64,000 bases of DNA from Sphaerimonospora thailandensis (lineage in GTDB: Bacteria > Actinomycetota > Actinomycetes > Streptosporangiales > Streptosporangiaceae): NCBI RefSeq assembly GCF_016863115.1, contig NZ_BOOG01000011.1:1-64000 (forward strand), in the 5' to 3' direction. How positions within the stretch are numbered: the first letter of the stretch is position 1; each line of letters opens with the position of its first letter. Both the position numbers and the translations under genes were made by a program. Shown piece after piece: positions 34,106-41,370 of this stretch. The notes below the pieces were generated by a model, which was given only the letters and a program-made list of their open reading frames with translations, did no database searches and was not told where the DNA came from.

Positions 34106-34795
34106 GTGATCCATTTCGATAATGTCACCAAGGTCTACGCGAACCAAAACCGGCCCGCCCTCGACCACGTGAGCGTGGACGTCGACAAGGGCGAGTTCGT
34201 GTTCCTGGTCGGCCCCTCAGGGTCGGGGAAGTCCACCTTCCTCCGGCTTGTCCTGAAGGAGGAGCGGCCCAACTCCGGCACGATCCACGTGGCCGGCAAG
34301 GACCTCTCGCGGCTGTCCAACTTCAAGGTGCCCCATTTGCGGCGCCGTATCGGCTGTGTCTTCCAGGACTTCCGGCTCCTGCCGAAGAAGAACGTCTACG
34401 AGAACGTGGCGTTCGCGCTGGAGGTCATCGGAAAGCCGCGCCGGTTCATCCGCAAGGTGGTGCCCGAGGTGATCGAGCTGGTGGGGCTTGAGGGCAAGGC
34501 CCACCGCATGCCGGAGGAGCTGTCCGGCGGCGAGCAGCAGCGGGTCGCGATGGCCCGCGCCTTCGTCAACCGGCCGATGATCCTCCTGGCCGACGAGCCC
34601 ACCGGAAACATCGACCCCGCGACCAGCATCGGCATCATGAAGGTGCTCGACCGCATCAACAGGACCGGCACCACCGTGCTCATGGCGACGCACGACGCCG
34701 CCATCGTCGACTCCATGCGCAAGCGCGTGGTGGAGCTGGAGGACGGCAAGATCGTTCGCGACCAGTCACGCGGCGTGTACGGCCAGGCGTATTAG
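34106..34795 (+). CDS. ftsE: Cell-division ABC ATPase FtsE
   Basis: A 229-residue ABC ATPase. Walker A is GPSGSGKST (about 36-44), the signature is [14 protein letters not shown] and Walker B is [12 protein letters not shown], followed by the H-loop in MATHD. FtsE with FtsX regulates peptidoglycan hydrolases at the septum. The GTG start lies about 20 bp after the second repeat. ftsX follows after 14 bp. Confidence 0.95.
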
Positions 34796-34809: not shown

Positions 34810-35709
34810 ATGCGGGCCAACTTCATCTTCTCCGAGGTCTGGATCGGCCTTCGCCGCAACCTCACGATGACCATCGCGGTCGTCGTGACCGTTGCCGTCG
34901 GCATGGCGCTGCTCGGCATCGGGCTGATGATCAACTCTCAGGTCTCGAAGATGACCAACTACTGGACCGACAAGGTCGAGCTGTCGGTCTTCCTCTGTCA
35001 GAAGGACAGCGCCTTCGAGTCGTGCAAGGGCAAACCCCCGCTGACCACGGCGCAGAAGACGCAGTTGCAGCAGACGATCGAGGGCCTGCCGGAGGTGGCC
35101 AAGGTCGAGTACGAGGACCAGAAGGCGGCGTACGAGAAGTTCCGCCGGCAGCCGAACAACAAGGTGTTCCTGACGGTGATCCAGGCCGGCGACCTGCCCG
35201 ACTCGTTCCGGGTCAAGCTCAAGGACCCCGACAAGTCCCAGGCCGTCGCGAACAGCCTGTCCGGTCAGACCGGGATCGCCAACATCGTCAACCAGCGAGA
35301 GATCCTCGACACGCAGTTCGGCTTCCTCGGGAAGCTGCAGTGGATGGCGCTCGGCGTGGCCATCATCATGGTGATCGCGGCCACCCTGCTCATCGCCAAC
35401 ACCGTACGGCTGTCCGCCTACAACCGCCGCCGGGAGACCGGCATCATGCGGCTGGTCGGCGCCTCCAACCTCTACATCCAACTCCCGTTCGTCATGGAGG
35501 GCGTGATCGCCGGCCTGATCGGCGGCGTGTGCGCGGCCGTTCTGCTGATCATCACCAAGATCCTCATCTTCGACGGGATCCAGGCGTACATGGCCGTCCC
35601 ACTCGGCTGGGACACGCTCGCCGGTGTGATCACGTTCACGATGGTGGTCGGCGTGGTGATCTGTATCCTCGCCTCCTTCGTCACCCTGCGCCGCTACCTC
35701 CGGGTGTGA
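34810..35709 (+). CDS. ftsX: Cell-division permease-like protein FtsX
   Basis: A 299-residue membrane protein: a short cytoplasmic head, one helix (TIAVVVTVAVGMALLGIGL), an extracytoplasmic loop of about 125 residues with two Cys (FLCQKDSAFESCKG), then three helices. The FtsX core GIMRLVGASNLYIQLPFVMEG is clear. The external loop contacts cell-wall hydrolases. The start has TTAGGAG upstream. It is cotranscribed with ftsE. Confidence 0.95.
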   Translation: MRANFIFSEVWIGLRRNLTMTIAVVVTVAVGMALLGIGLMINSQVSKMTNYWTDKVELSVFLCQKDSAFESCKGKPPLTTAQKTQLQQTIEGLPEVAKVEYEDQKAAYEKFRRQPNNKVFLTVIQAGDLPDSFRVKLKDPDKSQAVANSLSGQTGIANIVNQREILDTQFGFLGKLQWMALGVAIIMVIAATLLIANTVRLSAYNRRRETGIMRLVGASNLYIQLPFVMEGVIAGLIGGVCAAVLLIITKILIFDGIQAYMAVPLGWDTLAGVITFTMVVGVVICILASFVTLRRYLRV

Positions 35710-35775: not shown

Positions 35776-36282
35776 ATGCCACGTGAGACCGGGCGCAAGC
35801 TGATCGCCCAGAACAAGCGTGCCAGGCACGACTACTTCATCGAGGACACCTATGAGGCCGGTCTCGTGCTGACCGGCACAGAGGTCAAGTCGCTGCGCGC
35901 GGGCAAGGCCAACCTCACCGACGGCTACGCCTCGATGCAGGACGGCGAGGCCTGGTTGATCAACGTGTACATCCCCGAGTACAGCCAGGGCACCTGGACC
36001 AATCACGCGGCGCGGCGCACCCGAAAGCTGCTGCTGCACCGCAAGGAGATCGGCAAGCTGCAGGCGACCCTGCGGGAGCGCGGCCTGACCCTGATCCCGC
36101 TGTCGCTGTACTTCAAGGACGGCCGAGCCAAGATCGAGATCGGCGTGGGCCGAGGCAAGAAGGACTACGACAAGCGCCAGACCCTGCTGGAGAAGCAGGC
36201 CAACCGGGAGATGGCCCGGGCCATGTCCAACGCGACGGCCAAGGCGGCGGTCAAGGCGGTCCGCCGCCGGGGAGGCCGTTAG
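35776..36282 (+). CDS. smpB: SsrA-binding protein SmpB
   Basis: A 168-residue Smp[38 protein letters not shown] and the basic C-terminal tail are diagnostic. It delivers tmRNA to stalled ribosomes. Its RNA partner ssrA is encoded 2.3 kb downstream, with only one other gene in between. Confidence 0.96.
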
Positions 36283-36285
36283 GTC

Positions 36286-38220
36286 GTGTCCCGTCCCGTG
36301 TCCGCGACCACCGCCCGCGCGAGAGCCGTACGCGCCACGCTGGCACTGGGGCTGGCGATGCCCCTGCTGACGGCGTGCTTCGAGGAACCGTCCCCGCACG
36401 AGGCCGTGCGGGACTTCCTCGTCGGCTGGGAGACCGGGGAGTACGGCGAGGCCGCAAAGCGTGCCGACGGCGACCCGGCGACCGTGCGGAAGGCGCTGGA
36501 GAACGCCCGGCTGCAACTCGACGCCGCGTCGATCCGATTTCTGGTGAAGGGGATCAGCAGCGACGGCGACACCGCGCGGGCCGACTACCACGCCGAGGTG
36601 GATCTGGGGGAGAACAACCCCCTCTGGGAGTACGACGGCGCGCTGCCGCTGCACATGGTCGATGGACAGTGGAAGGTCCGGTGGTCACCGAGCGTGATCC
36701 ATCCCGACCTGCACGACGGGCAGCGCCTGGCCGTGGCGACCAGGCCCGAGGGCCGTCAGCCGATCCTCGACCGGAACGGCAATCCGCTCCAGGAACAGAC
36801 CATCCTCTACGTGGCCGGGGTCTACCCGGCGAAGATCAAGGACCCCGATCGGCTGTGCGACGAGCTGTCGCGGGTCACCGGATTCGCCCAGGACCGCCTG
36901 CTCAGCCGGATCCTCTCGTCGCCGCCGCAGGACTTCGTCCCGCTCGCGACGTTCGGACGCACCAAGTTCGCGCAGATCAAGGACAAGCTGACGGCGATCA
37001 CCGGCATCAGCATCGTCCCGGACGACCCGCCGGTGGCGCCGAAGTCGCCCGTGCAGATCGTGGGCCGGGTCAGCGCGATCACCCCCGAGGCCGAGCAGCA
37101 GCTCGGCGGTCCGCAGCGGGCGGGCGACTCGGTCGGCCGCGACGGCCTGCAGCGGGCCTACCAGGATCAGCTGACCGGCTCGACCGAGACCAGCGTCGTC
37201 ATCCTCGACAGCCGCACGGGCAAGCAGGTCAAGGAGCTCAAGGCCTGGCGACCGGTACGCAAGGCCATGCCGGTCCAGACGACCATCGACAGCGCCGCCC
37301 AGAGCGCGGGCGACGCCGCGGTGGCCGCCGCCCGCTCGTCGGCGCTCGTGGCCGTCAAGGGCTCCACCGGTGAGATCCTCGCGGTGTCCACGAACGGTCT
37401 CCACCAGGAGAAGGACGCCCTGGCCGGCAAGTTTCCGGCCGGCACGACTTTTTCGATCATCGCGGCGGCCGGCCTGCTCAAGGGAGGCCTCGATCCCATG
37501 CAGCGGGTGCCGTGCAGCGCCGACCGCACGGTGGGCGGCGCACGGTTCCTGCAGCCGGGGATCATCGGGCTCGTCTCGCCGACCTTCCGTACGGACTTCG
37601 CCGACGGCTGCGTGACGGCCCTCGCCTCCCTCGCCCGACGGATCGACGGGCGCTCGTTGAGCGCCACCGCGTCCAACTTCGGGATCGGCGGGGACTGGGG
37701 GCTGCCGCTCAGGACGTTCAGCGGGTCGGTCCCGAACGCGAACAGCGACGCCGCCGTCGCCAGGGTCATCACCGGGCAGACCGCGCAGGTGAGCCCGCTG
37801 ACGATGGCCCTCGTGGCCGCGGCGGTCGACTCCGGGACGTGGCGGCCGCCGGTGCTCGTCACCTCGCCCACCTCGCCGGACGCGGCCCCTCGACCCTCGT
37901 CCGGCGCCCTGCCCGACAGCCCGCAGCAGGGCCGGCCGCAGCCCATCCCGCTCGACGCCACCACCATCGTCAAGCTGCGTGCGCTCATGCGCGCCGGGGT
38001 CACCTCCGGCGCGGCCCGCGCGGCCGACGCCCCCGGCGGCGACGTCTACGGCGTGGCCGCCCAGACCACCCAGGTGGAGAAGAAACAGCGGGTGAACCTG
38101 TCATGGTTCGTGGGCTGGCAGGGCGACGTGGCGGTGGCCGTACTCGCCGAGAACGCCGACGCCGCAGCGGCTTCCGCGATCGCCGGGGCGTTCTTCAGGG
38201 GCCTGCCGGACGACCGCTGA
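36286..38220 (+). CDS. Lipoprotein penicillin-binding-protein homologue with degenerate transpeptidase motifs
   Basis: A 644-residue protein: lipobox at Cys31 (MPLLTACFEE), an NTF2-like MecA N-domain (EAVRDFLVGWETGEYGEAA), a linker domain and a PBP transpeptidase domain (from about 320). The catalytic motifs are lost: SxxK (normally PPGSTFK) reads PAGTTFS with Thr387 and Ser390; SxN reads GCV (441-443); KTG reads QTT (593-595). The surrounding fold is intact (FRTDFADGC, SPLTMALVAAAVDSG, SWFVGWQGDVAVAVL). It is therefore likely a non-catalytic, perhaps beta-lactam-insensitive or scaffold, PBP. It starts 3 bp after smpB. Confidence 0.82.
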   Translation: MSRPVSATTARARAVRATLALGLAMPLLTACFEEPSPHEAVRDFLVGWETGEYGEAAKRADGDPATVRKALENARLQLDAASIRFLVKGISSDGDTARADYHAEVDLGENNPLWEYDGALPLHMVDGQWKVRWSPSVIHPDLHDGQRLAVATRPEGRQPILDRNGNPLQEQTILYVAGVYPAKIKDPDRLCDELSRVTGFAQDRLLSRILSSPPQDFVPLATFGRTKFAQIKDKLTAITGISIVPDDPPVAPKSPVQIVGRVSAITPEAEQQLGGPQRAGDSVGRDGLQRAYQDQLTGSTETSVVILDSRTGKQVKELKAWRPVRKAMPVQTTIDSAAQSAGDAAVAAARSSALVAVKGSTGEILAVSTNGLHQEKDALAGKFPAGTTFSIIAAAGLLKGGLDPMQRVPCSADRTVGGARFLQPGIIGLVSPTFRTDFADGCVTALASLARRIDGRSLSATASNFGIGGDWGLPLRTFSGSVPNANSDAAVARVITGQTAQVSPLTMALVAAAVDSGTWRPPVLVTSPTSPDAAPRPSSGALPDSPQQGRPQPIPLDATTIVKLRALMRAGVTSGAARAADAPGGDVYGVAAQTTQVEKKQRVNLSWFVGWQGDVAVAVLAENADAAAASAIAGAFFRGLPDDR

Positions 38221-38597: not shown

Positions 38598-38980
38598 GGG
38601 GGTGACCGGTTTCGACTTCGGCATTGCAAGTCAGGGGAAGCGGGTCGGGGACTGCGGACATAACCCCGTCAACACTGTGACCGCGAAAAAATAAGTGCCA
38701 ATAACACGCGCACTGAGGCTAGCCAGGGTTCCCTGGCTCTCGCTGCCTAACCAGCGAGTGACCTCTGTCAGCCCGGGACCGCCTCCGGCCCGGATCTGAC
38801 ATCGCTAGGAGGCTCAACCGCTCGACCCGGTCACGGGGTCGTTCGGGAAACCAAACAGTGACTGGGCCCGTCGGCGACTCGCCTGTGAGATCACCGGGGC
38901 CGAGAAAATCGCAACAGGCTGCACCCGGAGAAGCCCTGTCTTGGTGTTGAAGGACGCGGGTTCGATTCCCGCCACCTCCA
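38598..38980 (+). ncRNA. ssrA: Transfer-messenger RNA (tmRNA)
   Basis: The 5' end GGGGGTGACCGGTTTCGACT and the 3' end TTCGATTCCCGCCACCTCCA form the tRNA-like domain; the 7-bp acceptor stem pairs GGGGGUG with CACCUCC. The 3' CCA is not encoded. The tag frame at 38697-38750 encodes ANNTRTEASQGSLALAA before TAA, a normal actinobacterial degradation tag ending LALAA. Between tag and 3' end lie the pseudoknot segments. It rescues stalled ribosomes with SmpB. An intrinsic terminator follows. Confidence 0.95.
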
Positions 38981-38988
38981 CGTCGCAC

Positions 38989-39018: not shown

Positions 39019-39037
39019 CGTCTGCCCACGCCGCTGC

Positions 39038-39071
39038 TGTCAAACAGCCAGGATATCCTGGCGGTTTGACA
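39038..39071. repeat. 34-bp near-palindrome, left boundary of the HEPN/MNT cassette
   Basis: Structure: TGTCAAAC, two bases (AG), CCAGGATATCCTGG, two bases (CG), GTTTGACA. The outer 8-bp arms and inner 14-bp core are both perfectly symmetric. It is identical to the copy at 40222-40255 at 32 of 34 positions; the differences fall in the two-base joints. It lies 20 bp after the ssrA terminator and 37 bp beyond the end of the HEPN gene. Confidence 0.85.
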
Positions 39072-39107
39072 TATTCGCATCTCTCGCCCCAGTCGGAGGA
39101 GGAGATC

Positions 39108-39578
39108 TCACGGAATGAACGGCGAGAGATGAGACAGTACCTTGCCGGTCGCGTCCACGACGGCGGCCGCCGCCGGAAGGTCATCGCGGACGCTCTCCTC
39201 GTCGATCCAGGTTGTCGGCGTCGGATACTCGCTTTCGTGTCGCGTCGTACGGATGCGATCGATCGGCCGGAGGATCGCCCCCAGGGAGGCGCCGAACTGG
39301 GCACGGGCTGCGTGCTGAACGGCCAAATGACCACCTGTCGTTGTCGCCCGCAGCCCTTGGACCTGCAGGAGCGCCGCCAAAGCTTTGCGAACGGCGTCAT
39401 GTAGCGCCGCATAGGCAAGATATGGATCCGTGTCGGCGAGTGTCTCGGCACTGACGAGGTGCTGCCGCGCGGTCGCGAGCATTCGTTCGGCGAGTTCGGC
39501 ATCCGCGACCACCTGAGTGAGTTCGCGCCGCTGGAGCATGCCGAGGATTTCCTCCCGTCCCCGTGCCCAACTGGTCAT
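39108..39578 (-). CDS. HEPN-domain protein, probable RNase toxin of a HEPN/MNT pair
   Basis: A 156-residue all-helical protein. The second half fits HEPN: a helix with YLAYAALHDAVRKALAALLQVQGL, then IDRIRTTRHESEYP, giving an R-x5-H motif (Arg108, His114) within the Rx4-6H range of HEPN ribonucleases. HEPN toxins of this kind are neutralised by a partner nucleotidyltransferase, encoded directly upstream with an ATGA overlap. A role in phage defence is possible. Activity is inferred. Confidence 0.75.
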   Translation of the reverse strand: MTSWARGREEILGMLQRRELTQVVADAELAERMLATARQHLVSAETLADTDPYLAYAALHDAVRKALAALLQVQGLRATTTGGHLAVQHAARAQFGASLGAILRPIDRIRTTRHESEYPTPTTWIDEESVRDDLPAAAAVVDATGKVLSHLSPFIP

Positions 39579-40165
39579 GCCGCATTCCCATGGGGAAGCG
39601 GCACTGCGACGACTGGGCGGCTGTGAAGTTCGCGGATGAATCCGTCCTTGTTGGCCTCCCAGCGGGAACGCGTGACGACCACAGCGTTGACTTCGCGTCC
39701 CAGCCGGGATTTCGCGCGTGCGGCGGCGTCGTAGAGGTCGTCGCGATCGGGTCGGCCGATGATGAGAAGATCGATGTCAACCGGCGTGGGGCCGGACTCG
39801 CCATGTATCCGTGCTGCCCAGGAGCCGAAAATGGCGGCTTCCTCGATCCCCTCGACATCCGCCAGTTCTTCCGACAGAACTTGGGCCGGGCCCAGAATGA
39901 TCGTGACAAGATCGCGCAGTGGCCCATAGAAGGGGGCCGCATGGTTGGCTCGCACCAGTTTGGTGCGCCCCACATGACGGCTGGCGAGAATGCCCGCTCT
40001 TTCGAGCCGGGAGACCTCACGGGCCATTGTGCCGCTGTCGGTGCCGGTCGCCGCAGCGAGTGCGGTGATGGAGTGCTCTTTGTCGCCCACGTATGTGTGT
40101 GTCAGCACGGCACACGTGATCCGCGAGCGGAAGATCGGAAAGATGGGAGGTGGTGGCTGCTGCAT
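39575..40165 (-). CDS. Winged-helix nucleotidyltransferase (MNT), probable antitoxin and autoregulator
   Basis: A 196-residue fusion. The N-terminal winged helix (about 15-75) reads HSITALAAATGTDSGTMAREV and RLERAGILASRHVGRTKLVRAN. The C-terminal minimal nucleotidyltransferase has FGSWAARIHGES (Gly114-Ser115) and the metal pair PVDIDLLIIG (Asp130, Asp132). MNT antitoxins silence HEPN partners, in some cases by AMPylation. The ATG at 40165 has GAAGGATCC upstream. The palindrome at 40222-40255 sits over its promoter, so the winged helix is a good candidate autorepressor. Confidence 0.78.
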   Translation of the reverse strand: MQQPPPPIFPIFRSRITCAVLTHTYVGDKEHSITALAAATGTDSGTMAREVSRLERAGILASRHVGRTKLVRANHAAPFYGPLRDLVTIILGPAQVLSEELADVEGIEEAAIFGSWAARIHGESGPTPVDIDLLIIGRPDRDDLYDAAARAKSRLGREVNAVVVTRSRWEANKDGFIRELHSRPVVAVPLPHGNAA

Positions 40166-40221
40166 GCCTGGATCCTTCAACAGGGGCATGCGTGACAAGA
40201 TGATCACGCTCCGTATATTAC

Positions 40222-40255
40222 TGTCAAACAACCAGGATATCCTGGCCGTTTGACA
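40222..40255. repeat. 34-bp near-palindrome at the promoter of the HEPN/MNT operon, right boundary
   Basis: Same layout as 39038-39071 with AA and CC in the two-base joints. On the minus strand TAATAT (40215-40220) directly follows and is a good -10 element, so the palindrome covers the -35 region of the mnt promoter. It may be the operator of the winged-helix MNT protein, a recombination site, or both. Confidence 0.85.
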
Positions 40256-40341
40256 GATTACCTCGGCCATCGTGGATGCTCCATGCCGTGGCCCGGGTCG
40301 CCGGCCGAACTGGAGGCCGTCGCAGGGGCTAGAGTCGCGGC

Positions 40342-40932
40342 GTGGTGAAGCGTGATGAGTGGTCGTCTCGGGCGGTCGAGCGGGACAGGCCTGTGATCGT
40401 GCGGCGGGCGCTGCCGACCGAGCCGGCCGTGCGGGGATCGGCGTCGTTGTTCATGACCGAGGCCGAGCGGCAGGGCGTCCGCGCCGACCGGCGGATGCTG
40501 CACGTGGGCCCGGAACCCGCCGGGCCGTACGTCGCGGAGGCGCTGCGGATCGAGCCCGGTACGGACGTCCTGGCACGGCGTAAGTTGCTCCTCGCGAACG
40601 ACGTTCCAGTGCGGATCGCCACGAGCTACCTGCGGCTCGACCTGTTCGGCGGCACACCGCTGGCCGAGCCGGACTTCGTCAAGCCGAGCCTGCAGGCGGG
40701 CATCGAGGCGCTGGGCCACCGCTTCGGGTGGGCGGAAGAGCGACTGATCGCCCGGCCGCCCGTCGGGTCGGAGCCCGACACCCTGGAACTCGAAGACGGC
40801 GAATGGGTCGTGGAGATCCTACGGATGAGTCGTTCGATCGAGGACGTTCCGATCCACGCCCTGGAGACCATCTGCGCCGCATCCCGGCACATCTTTCCCA
40901 TCGCCCAGGTGACCGGTGCCGATGAGTTCTGA
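40342..40932 (+). CDS. Orphan UTRA-domain protein (GntR/HutC effector domain without the DNA-binding domain)
   Basis: A 196-residue protein consisting mainly of the UTRA ligand-binding fold seen in HutC-type regulators (GPYVAEALRIEPGTDVLARRKLLLANDVPVRIATSYLRLDLFGGTPL ... LELEDGEWVVEILRMSRSIEDVPIHALETICAASRHIF is split here by variable segments). The first 50 residues contain no winged helix. The GTG start is supported by the open frame only. It could be a decayed regulator, a dominant-negative partner or a stand-alone effector sensor. Confidence 0.62.
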   Translation: MVKRDEWSSRAVERDRPVIVRRALPTEPAVRGSASLFMTEAERQGVRADRRMLHVGPEPAGPYVAEALRIEPGTDVLARRKLLLANDVPVRIATSYLRLDLFGGTPLAEPDFVKPSLQAGIEALGHRFGWAEERLIARPPVGSEPDTLELEDGEWVVEILRMSRSIEDVPIHALETICAASRHIFPIAQVTGADEF

Positions 40933-40959: not shown

Positions 40960-41370
40960 TCAACGAGGACGGGTTACCGGGATCACGGTGAGGAGGTGAT
41001 CCAGCCCTTTGAAGTCCTTCGGGTTGCAGGTGTAAAGGGGTAGCCGATTAGCGATAGCCACACAGGCGATCATCAGGTCGGCAGTCCTGGGACGGGGTTT
41101 GCGGCCCGACGCGATGACAGCAGTCCAAAGCTGGCCGTACTCACGGGCCGCGGTTTGGTCGAAGGGGAGAGGGTCGAACTCGGCCTCGGCAGCCTGCAGG
41201 ATCTTCATGCGCTGGGCGAGTTCCCGGGGGTCGGTCGCAGTCAGAACGCCGACCGACAGTTCTGCCGTGGTGATCGAACTGATCATCATCTCGTCGGGTA
41301 GTTCGTCATGGTCGATGTCTGCACGCAGGATCAGGATGTTGGTATCGAGTAGCCCCGGGGAATGATTCAC
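40960..41370 (-). CDS. vapC: VapC-type PIN-domain ribonuclease toxin (second pair)
   Basis: A 136-residue PIN protein with acidic residues in LLDTNILIL, SSITTAELSVGV and RTADLMIACVAI, and the C-terminal YTCNPKDF. It is clearly related to the toxin at 18752-19180. The start overlaps the antitoxin stop by 4 bp (ATGA). Both pairs lie in accessory DNA. Confidence 0.87.
   Translation of the reverse strand: MNHSPGLLDTNILILRADIDHDELPDEMMISSITTAELSVGVLTATDPRELAQRMKILQAAEAEFDPLPFDQTAAREYGQLWTAVIASGRKPRPRTADLMIACVAIANRLPLYTCNPKDFKGLDHLLTVIPVTRPR

Follow-up and report, generated by a model that had tools for sequence, protein, structure and literature searches.

A penicillin-binding protein homologue without its catalytic lysines is retained beside ftsEX and smpB across a bacterial clade

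What does a class B penicillin-binding protein (PBP) do for its cell once its active site is gone? This question is raised by a gene in a 64,000-nucleotide stretch of the Sphaerimonospora thailandensis genome (the window), where the gene order is prfB-like, ftsE, ftsX, smpB, the gene under study and ssrA. The gene is a 644-codon frame that starts with GTG 3 nt past the smpB stop, with a GGAGG within the 3' end of smpB, and 377 bases separate its end from the tmRNA gene. The initial annotation of this locus had described a full-length, uninterrupted gene with an intact lipobox lying between smpB and ssrA, and each of these points was borne out: the frame is open throughout, LTAC ends at C31, and both neighbours were identified. 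The features are as follows.

34106-34795, plus strand: ftsE (ABC_tran), named by position and kin
34810-35709, plus strand: ftsX (FtsX_ECD and FtsX, by Pfam)
35776-36282, plus strand: smpB (PF01668), the upstream neighbour
36286-38220, plus strand: pseudo-transpeptidase lipoprotein of class B PBP architecture with a lost active site, 644 aa
36367-36378, plus strand: lipobox L-T-A-C, residues 28-31, with C31 as its Cys (from the sequence)
36391-36723, plus strand: MecA_N (NTF2-like), residues 36-146 (Pfam)
36754-37236, plus strand: PBP_dimer (pedestal), residues 157-317 (Pfam)
37345-38199, plus strand: Transpeptidase fold, residues 354-638, motifs gone (Pfam, structure model)
37444-37455, plus strand: SxxK slot, TTFS, T387-S390 (alignment to relatives)
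37606-37614, plus strand: SxN slot, GCV, G441-C-V443 (alignment to relatives)
38053-38061, plus strand: true KTG slot, VAA, V590-A591-A592 (alignment with the K-T-G of intact relatives)
38598-38983, plus strand: ssrA tmRNA (end about 38981-38983), the downstream neighbour

MecA_N, PBP_dimer and Transpeptidase all score above the Pfam cut-offs in the window protein, and all three were matched (E 0.001) in 17 of 17 members of set A1. This is the architecture of the PBP2a/PBP5-type class B PBPs. The MecA_N-type proteins S. aureus PBP2a, E. faecium PBP5 and B. subtilis PBP3 have the same three domains and are the best matches by sequence and Foldseek; the nearest solved sequence is that of E. faecium PBP5, with the other two ranking lower. 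An AlphaFold2 model built on a 59-sequence alignment (the window protein and 58 named loci) reached a mean pLDDT of 85.6 and a pTM of 0.80. Its top Foldseek ranks were PBP2a, B. subtilis PBP3 and PBP5, and PBPA and PBP3 structures were also matched. Residues from about 145 to 644 align to class B-type transpeptidases at Z 39-43, and the PBP fold was recovered at Z of at least 8 in all 998 aligned chains, these being the chains ranked highest by Foldseek. The model contains no coiled coil, and its longest helix past the signal region has 17 residues.

S. aureus PBP2a, E. faecium PBP5 and B. subtilis PBP3 are active PBPs that carry SxxK, SxN and KTG. Compared with them, the window protein has lost both catalytic lysines. 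The initial annotation had reported the loss of all three motifs, and alignment to relatives agrees for SxxK, now TTFS, and for SxN, now GCV; the KTG slot, which it had read as QTT, is instead VAA. Residues 593-595, which spell that QTT, are three residues off register and pair with the T-A-E just after KTG; a second QTT occurs at residue 331. The strand that would hold KTG is still formed in the model (587-598). A pattern scan of the entire window protein found no SxxK, and the lone [KHR][TS]G (at 310) and lone [SY]xN (at 368) both lie ahead of the SxxK slot. With no intact motif set elsewhere in the window protein, the pseudoenzyme reading survives the first of the two checks that the initial annotation had named against it. 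Judged by these residues, the protein would lack transpeptidase activity.

We asked how widely this state is shared by taking one positional orthologue per genus from 58 genera of GTDB family f1 and one of family f2; with the window, which is congeneric with genome G001, these make up 60 rows that we call dead. The SxxK Lys and the KTG Lys are each lost in 60/60, the SxN Asn in 59/60, the nucleophile Ser in 54/60 and the SxN Ser in 47/60, and 41 of the 60 rows have lost all five catalytic residues together. The comparison set of 47 other relatives, called intact, keeps the SxxK Lys in 47/47 and the KTG Lys in 44/47. Its three exceptions are L045 and L229, which read TAFK and TTG, and L230, which is aberrant at the KTG slot. 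L045 and L229 (family f15) are a second MecA_N-type paralogue with a Thr nucleophile and TTG in place of KTG, possibly a separate and independent weakening of the active site. The orthologue alignment that the initial annotation had called for thus upholds the loss it described, but as a clade-wide and old one, not particular to this gene.

At residue 390, the lysine slot, every one of the 81 near rows (the window and 80 named loci) has Ser, and 53 of the 60 dead rows from the two families have Ser or Thr. At residue 387, Thr or Ser is found in all but one of the 81 near rows; in 33 of the 60 dead rows the slot is taken by E, M, Q, G, A, D, P or F. The constancy of Ser390 (37453-37455) is hard to explain by drift alone. 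C410 and C442 are invariant in 107/107 rows, dead and intact alike, and we would guess at a disulfide between them near the former active site. The motif readings cover 60 and 81 dead sequences; the search for the gene itself, described below, covers 196 f1 genomes.

The lipobox Cys column holds Cys in 49 of the 60 dead orthologues, and the lipobox implies that the protein is held at the outer face of the membrane. The other 11 (L031, L032, L033, L035, L037, L041, L065, L066, L068, L075 and L076) have no Cys there and show an apparent N-terminal membrane helix instead; the ten of them that were present in the tree described below form a single clade.

The gene was found in all 196 f1 genomes searched, within an order sample of 200 genomes. 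In 195 of them the match is at E <= 6.1e-137, beyond the best listed paralogue match (1.6e-117); in the remaining genome, G067, the gene starts after smpB at a contig end, so that its apparent absence is an assembly edge. The copies in G066 and G106 are likewise cut by contig ends, which makes three of the 196. A burst of premature stops among relatives, which the initial annotation had named as a sign against its reading, was not seen: 79 of the 80 named loci, the best 80 of 331 confirmed and hence the near part of the family (genera including Microbispora, Planotetraspora, Nonomuraea and Streptosporangium), reach a natural stop and give a full-length product, and L145 ends with its contig. 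An in-frame TAG flagged in 3 of the 19 genomes sampled for dN/dS (G060, G070 and G177) lies upstream of a 628-aa open frame, and we therefore read it as preceding the true start.

To place the loss, we built a tree of 74 rows (59 dead, 15 intact) from which the motif columns had been removed, by a quick method without bootstrap; L032, at a contig end, and most of the distant relatives were left out. The branch that splits the 59 dead rows from the intact ones has an SH-aLRT of 100, and one change is needed. As read from these sequences, a single event removed the catalytic lysines in the ancestor that families f1 and f2 share, from which a large group of soil bacteria descends.

The neighbourhood is older than the loss. 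All 59 other dead loci have smpB upstream, on the same strand and no more than 1.5 kb away; ftsX is present in 58 of them (the exception, L067, is a short contig), and the tmRNA lies within 3 kb downstream in 54, with one of the five misses at a contig end. A gene with intact motifs adjoins ftsE-ftsX-smpB at L036, L038, L039, L042, L193 and L206. These comprise 3/3 genomes of a third family of the order, f3, and three more distant loci (L042, L193 and L206); the positional orthologues share the locus with the dead gene, but read STFK, SCN and KTG. No tmRNA was found at the three f3 loci, and L206 has its tmRNA between smpB and the intact gene. No smpB turned up in the stretches fetched for the other intact relatives, some of which are short contigs. 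Since the six loci with an intact gene in the same neighbourhood fall outside the dead clade, the gene occupied this position before catalysis was lost; read most simply, its ancestral state in that place was the intact one.

Some loci in this neighbourhood carry a further gene. L063, L064, L177, L183, L187, L192, L193 and L206 have an ORF of about 390-440 codons between ftsX and smpB that resembles, by eye, a PDZ/S41 C-terminal processing protease, and L040 has a shorter one; the window has ftsX and smpB as direct neighbours. Just past the tmRNA in the window lies a cassette of two minus-strand genes (39108-39578 and 39575-40270), flanked by two 39-nt direct repeats (92%, at 39037-39075 and 40221-40259), each of which is nearly palindromic in itself (TGTCAAAC...GTTTGACA). 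The larger cassette ORF has a sub-threshold MarR-type match and seems by eye to contain a nucleotidyltransferase part; Pfam matches nothing in the smaller, which resembles a HEPN partner by eye. Near the cassette lie a UTRA-domain regulator (40342-40932, plus strand) and a toxin-like PIN-domain ORF (40960-41370, minus strand).

We estimated dN/dS for the dead gene from 19 genomes of five genera, with an active MecA_N paralogue from the same 19 genomes as a reference. The values were 0.074 for the dead gene versus 0.069 for the paralogue, and fixing dN/dS at 1 took the log-likelihood of the dead gene from -13221 to -14743 (with kappa then fixed at 2.5 as well), a cost of about 1,522 log units. 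Absolute dN/dS is probably rough owing to synonymous saturation between species with high-GC genomes, and the comparison of the two genes is one between paralogues; the contrast of domains within the gene is the safer part. Within the dead gene, dN/dS was 0.061 for the NTF2 domain, 0.039 for the dimer domain (the strongest constraint), 0.093 for the transpeptidase part (330-644) and 0.137 for residues 501-644. The active paralogue is equally constrained in its N-terminal part (0.061) and its transpeptidase part (0.062).

Sequence identity follows the same division. It is higher in the dead protein than in the paralogue for the NTF2 domain (0.835 vs 0.786) and the dimer domain (0.844 vs 0.797, the latter from the 79 alignable positions out of 161), lower for the SxxK helix (0.707 vs 0.869) and the KTG strand (0.758 vs 0.908), and about equal for the SxN helix (0.910 vs 0.923). 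This helix (436-455) and the strand ahead of SxxK thus remain well conserved in the dead protein, and since the transpeptidase part is itself still constrained, that half is no passive remnant. By these measures, selection now weighs most heavily on the pedestal and NTF2 domains and more lightly on the transpeptidase cleft. The dN/dS that the initial annotation had proposed to compute accordingly indicates purifying selection, and its view that the gene has a selected non-catalytic function and is not decaying gains from this value, from the single loss and from the presence in 196/196 f1 genomes.

The genome that carries the gene holds 11 PF00905 matches, the pseudo-transpeptidase included; of the other 10 proteins, 6 have SxxK and KTG by regular expression, a scan in which L169 and L170 stayed unassigned and the KTG reading excludes L166 and L167, and 2 have a GS/AS-x-FK stretch. 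Because other motif-bearing PBPs are present, cross-linking need not depend on the pseudo-transpeptidase gene. Two of them, L164 and L165, are MecA_N PBPs of 560-571 aa that resemble PBP-R/PcbR and its cluster in length and motifs as described in PMC6273383 and PMC9146315. Like the pseudo-transpeptidase they are MecA_N-related class B PBPs, and they carry an SCN motif; they belong to a separate tree lineage and their motifs are intact.

We considered whether the gene died after a duplication that left an L164-type paralogue as its sister copy, and rejected this. In a quick tree of 340 columns whose root is uncertain, the paralogues group with family f19 (82) and the positional genes, dead and intact, form another group (97), which suggests that the paralogues are the older lineage. 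Six genomes (G038, G039, G040, G046, G051 and G298) have an intact close relative that is itself their best L164-type match, the one in G051 (L043) sitting on a short contig; in the f1 genomes G025, G137, G154 and G181 the best L164-type match is weak and, where checkable, is the dead gene itself. This partly complementary distribution of the L164-type paralogue describes at most a permissive background.

Taken together, the catalytic residues are lost, the fold is kept, selection is purifying and retention is clade-wide, as expected of a conserved pseudoenzyme. Because the non-catalytic form has been kept intact under selection, it probably does a job without catalysis. We think it fairly probable that this job is that of a membrane-tethered scaffold or regulator in wall synthesis, binding through the NTF2/pedestal half. 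The sequences show that the ftsE-ftsX-smpB cluster once included an active class B PBP, that this protein lost both catalytic lysines in a single event, and that the gene then stayed in place under purifying selection. The protein, lipid-anchored in most members and, by appearance, helix-anchored in one subclade, would stand on the outer face of the membrane. There its NTF2/pedestal half may bind a partner in peptidoglycan synthesis or division (candidates are a SEDS glycosyltransferase, another PBP that is active, and FtsEX, whose genes are next door) and act as a scaffold or allosteric regulator. Cross-linking would fall to other PBPs of the cell, such as the intact MecA_N-type paralogues. 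Canonical class B PBPs use an N-terminal transmembrane helix with their SEDS partners; most dead members are lipoproteins without such a helix, which makes a SEDS partner uncertain.

A cleft that is still constrained might instead bind a ligand. The protein could be a sensor or decoy with a dead cleft that still binds muropeptides or beta-lactams, without covalent attachment, and so reports their presence or titrates them, and both the well-conserved SxN helix and preceding strand and the low-affinity PBPs (PBP2a, PBP5) among relatives of the same architecture would suit such a role. We consider it unlikely, as the SxxK Lys, the KTG Lys and the SxN Asn are gone from all or nearly all dead rows and constraint on the protein is weakest in the C-terminal half, where the KTG strand lies. 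The initial annotation had entertained a beta-lactam decoy; a covalent one is unlikely on chemistry and found no support, because the residues for acylation are gone and the transpeptidase half that bears KTG is least constrained. Much less probable still is a changed chemistry, in which Thr/Ser at 387 or the conserved Ser390 serves a new reaction: the near-constant hydroxyl residues at both positions in the near rows would favour it, but the 387 slot takes eight other residues in over half of the dead rows, and both lysines are lost.

The neighbours suggest other roles. An adaptor like EnvC, a dead wall enzyme moved by FtsX that controls a real hydrolase or synthase, would accord with the presence of ftsX at all but one of the other dead loci and with EnvC itself, which is no hydrolase and mediates between FtsEX and one (excerpts of PMC10694151). 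The same excerpts describe FtsEX partners as binding via a coiled-coil domain, which EnvC has and our model does not, and since the active version shares the locus, position alone lends this weak support; we rate it as improbable as the ligand sensor. The initial annotation had tied the gene to ribosome rescue, and a component linked to SmpB and tmRNA would fit their proximity at most dead loci. That tie is unsupported because the position predates the loss: intact-motif genes share the place, ftsE and ftsX are equally constant neighbours, and the product looks like an exported lipoprotein, unlike the cytoplasmic SmpB and tmRNA. We give it very little credence. Least credible of all is a pseudogene in decay. 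The transpeptidase half is relaxed relative to the active paralogue, but frames are open and full-length in 79/79 named loci not cut by a contig end (among the best 80 of 331 relatives), and the dN/dS and the presence of the gene throughout f1 already contradict this reading.

The scaffold or regulator role has precedents. In excerpts of PMC5656894, the catalytically dead B. subtilis PBP 2B (S309A) still supports division, a class B PBP keeping a structural role without catalysis; that protein is an engineered mutant, whereas the loss described here is natural and clade-wide. Excerpts of PMC8078798 describe contact between the bPBP pedestal and SEDS ECL4 during activation, and those of PMC10257715 a closed/open switching of RodA-PBP2 that couples the activation of polymerisation and cross-linking. 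A counter-precedent is S. aureus PBP1, whose transpeptidase activity is also essential (excerpts of PMC9426605). Streptomyces class A PBPs without SxxK have already been reported (PMC6273383), and the class B section of that paper covers Streptomyces without mention of the pseudo-transpeptidase gene. We found no earlier description of this family in open-licence PMC text.

A bolder version of the scaffold or regulator reading is tentative, and we hold it possible rather than probable: at least 58 genera would keep a pseudo-transpeptidase of natural and single origin, with its gene next to ftsEX, and the protein would control peptidoglycan synthesis at the septum or sporulation septum by protein contact alone. 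If true, nature would here have produced a PBP family that gave up the penicillin target and retained the pedestal/NTF2 half for regulation. For annotation the family carries a warning: by its Pfam cut-offs, the window protein would be taken for a penicillin-binding transpeptidase. Engineered dead PBPs already show that structural roles are possible; a class B PBP that died once, naturally and across a clade would be a clean evolutionary experiment, in which selection separated cross-linking from the other job and singled out the NTF2/pedestal half as the part that matters. That other job could be tested in a gene without the residues for beta-lactam acylation.
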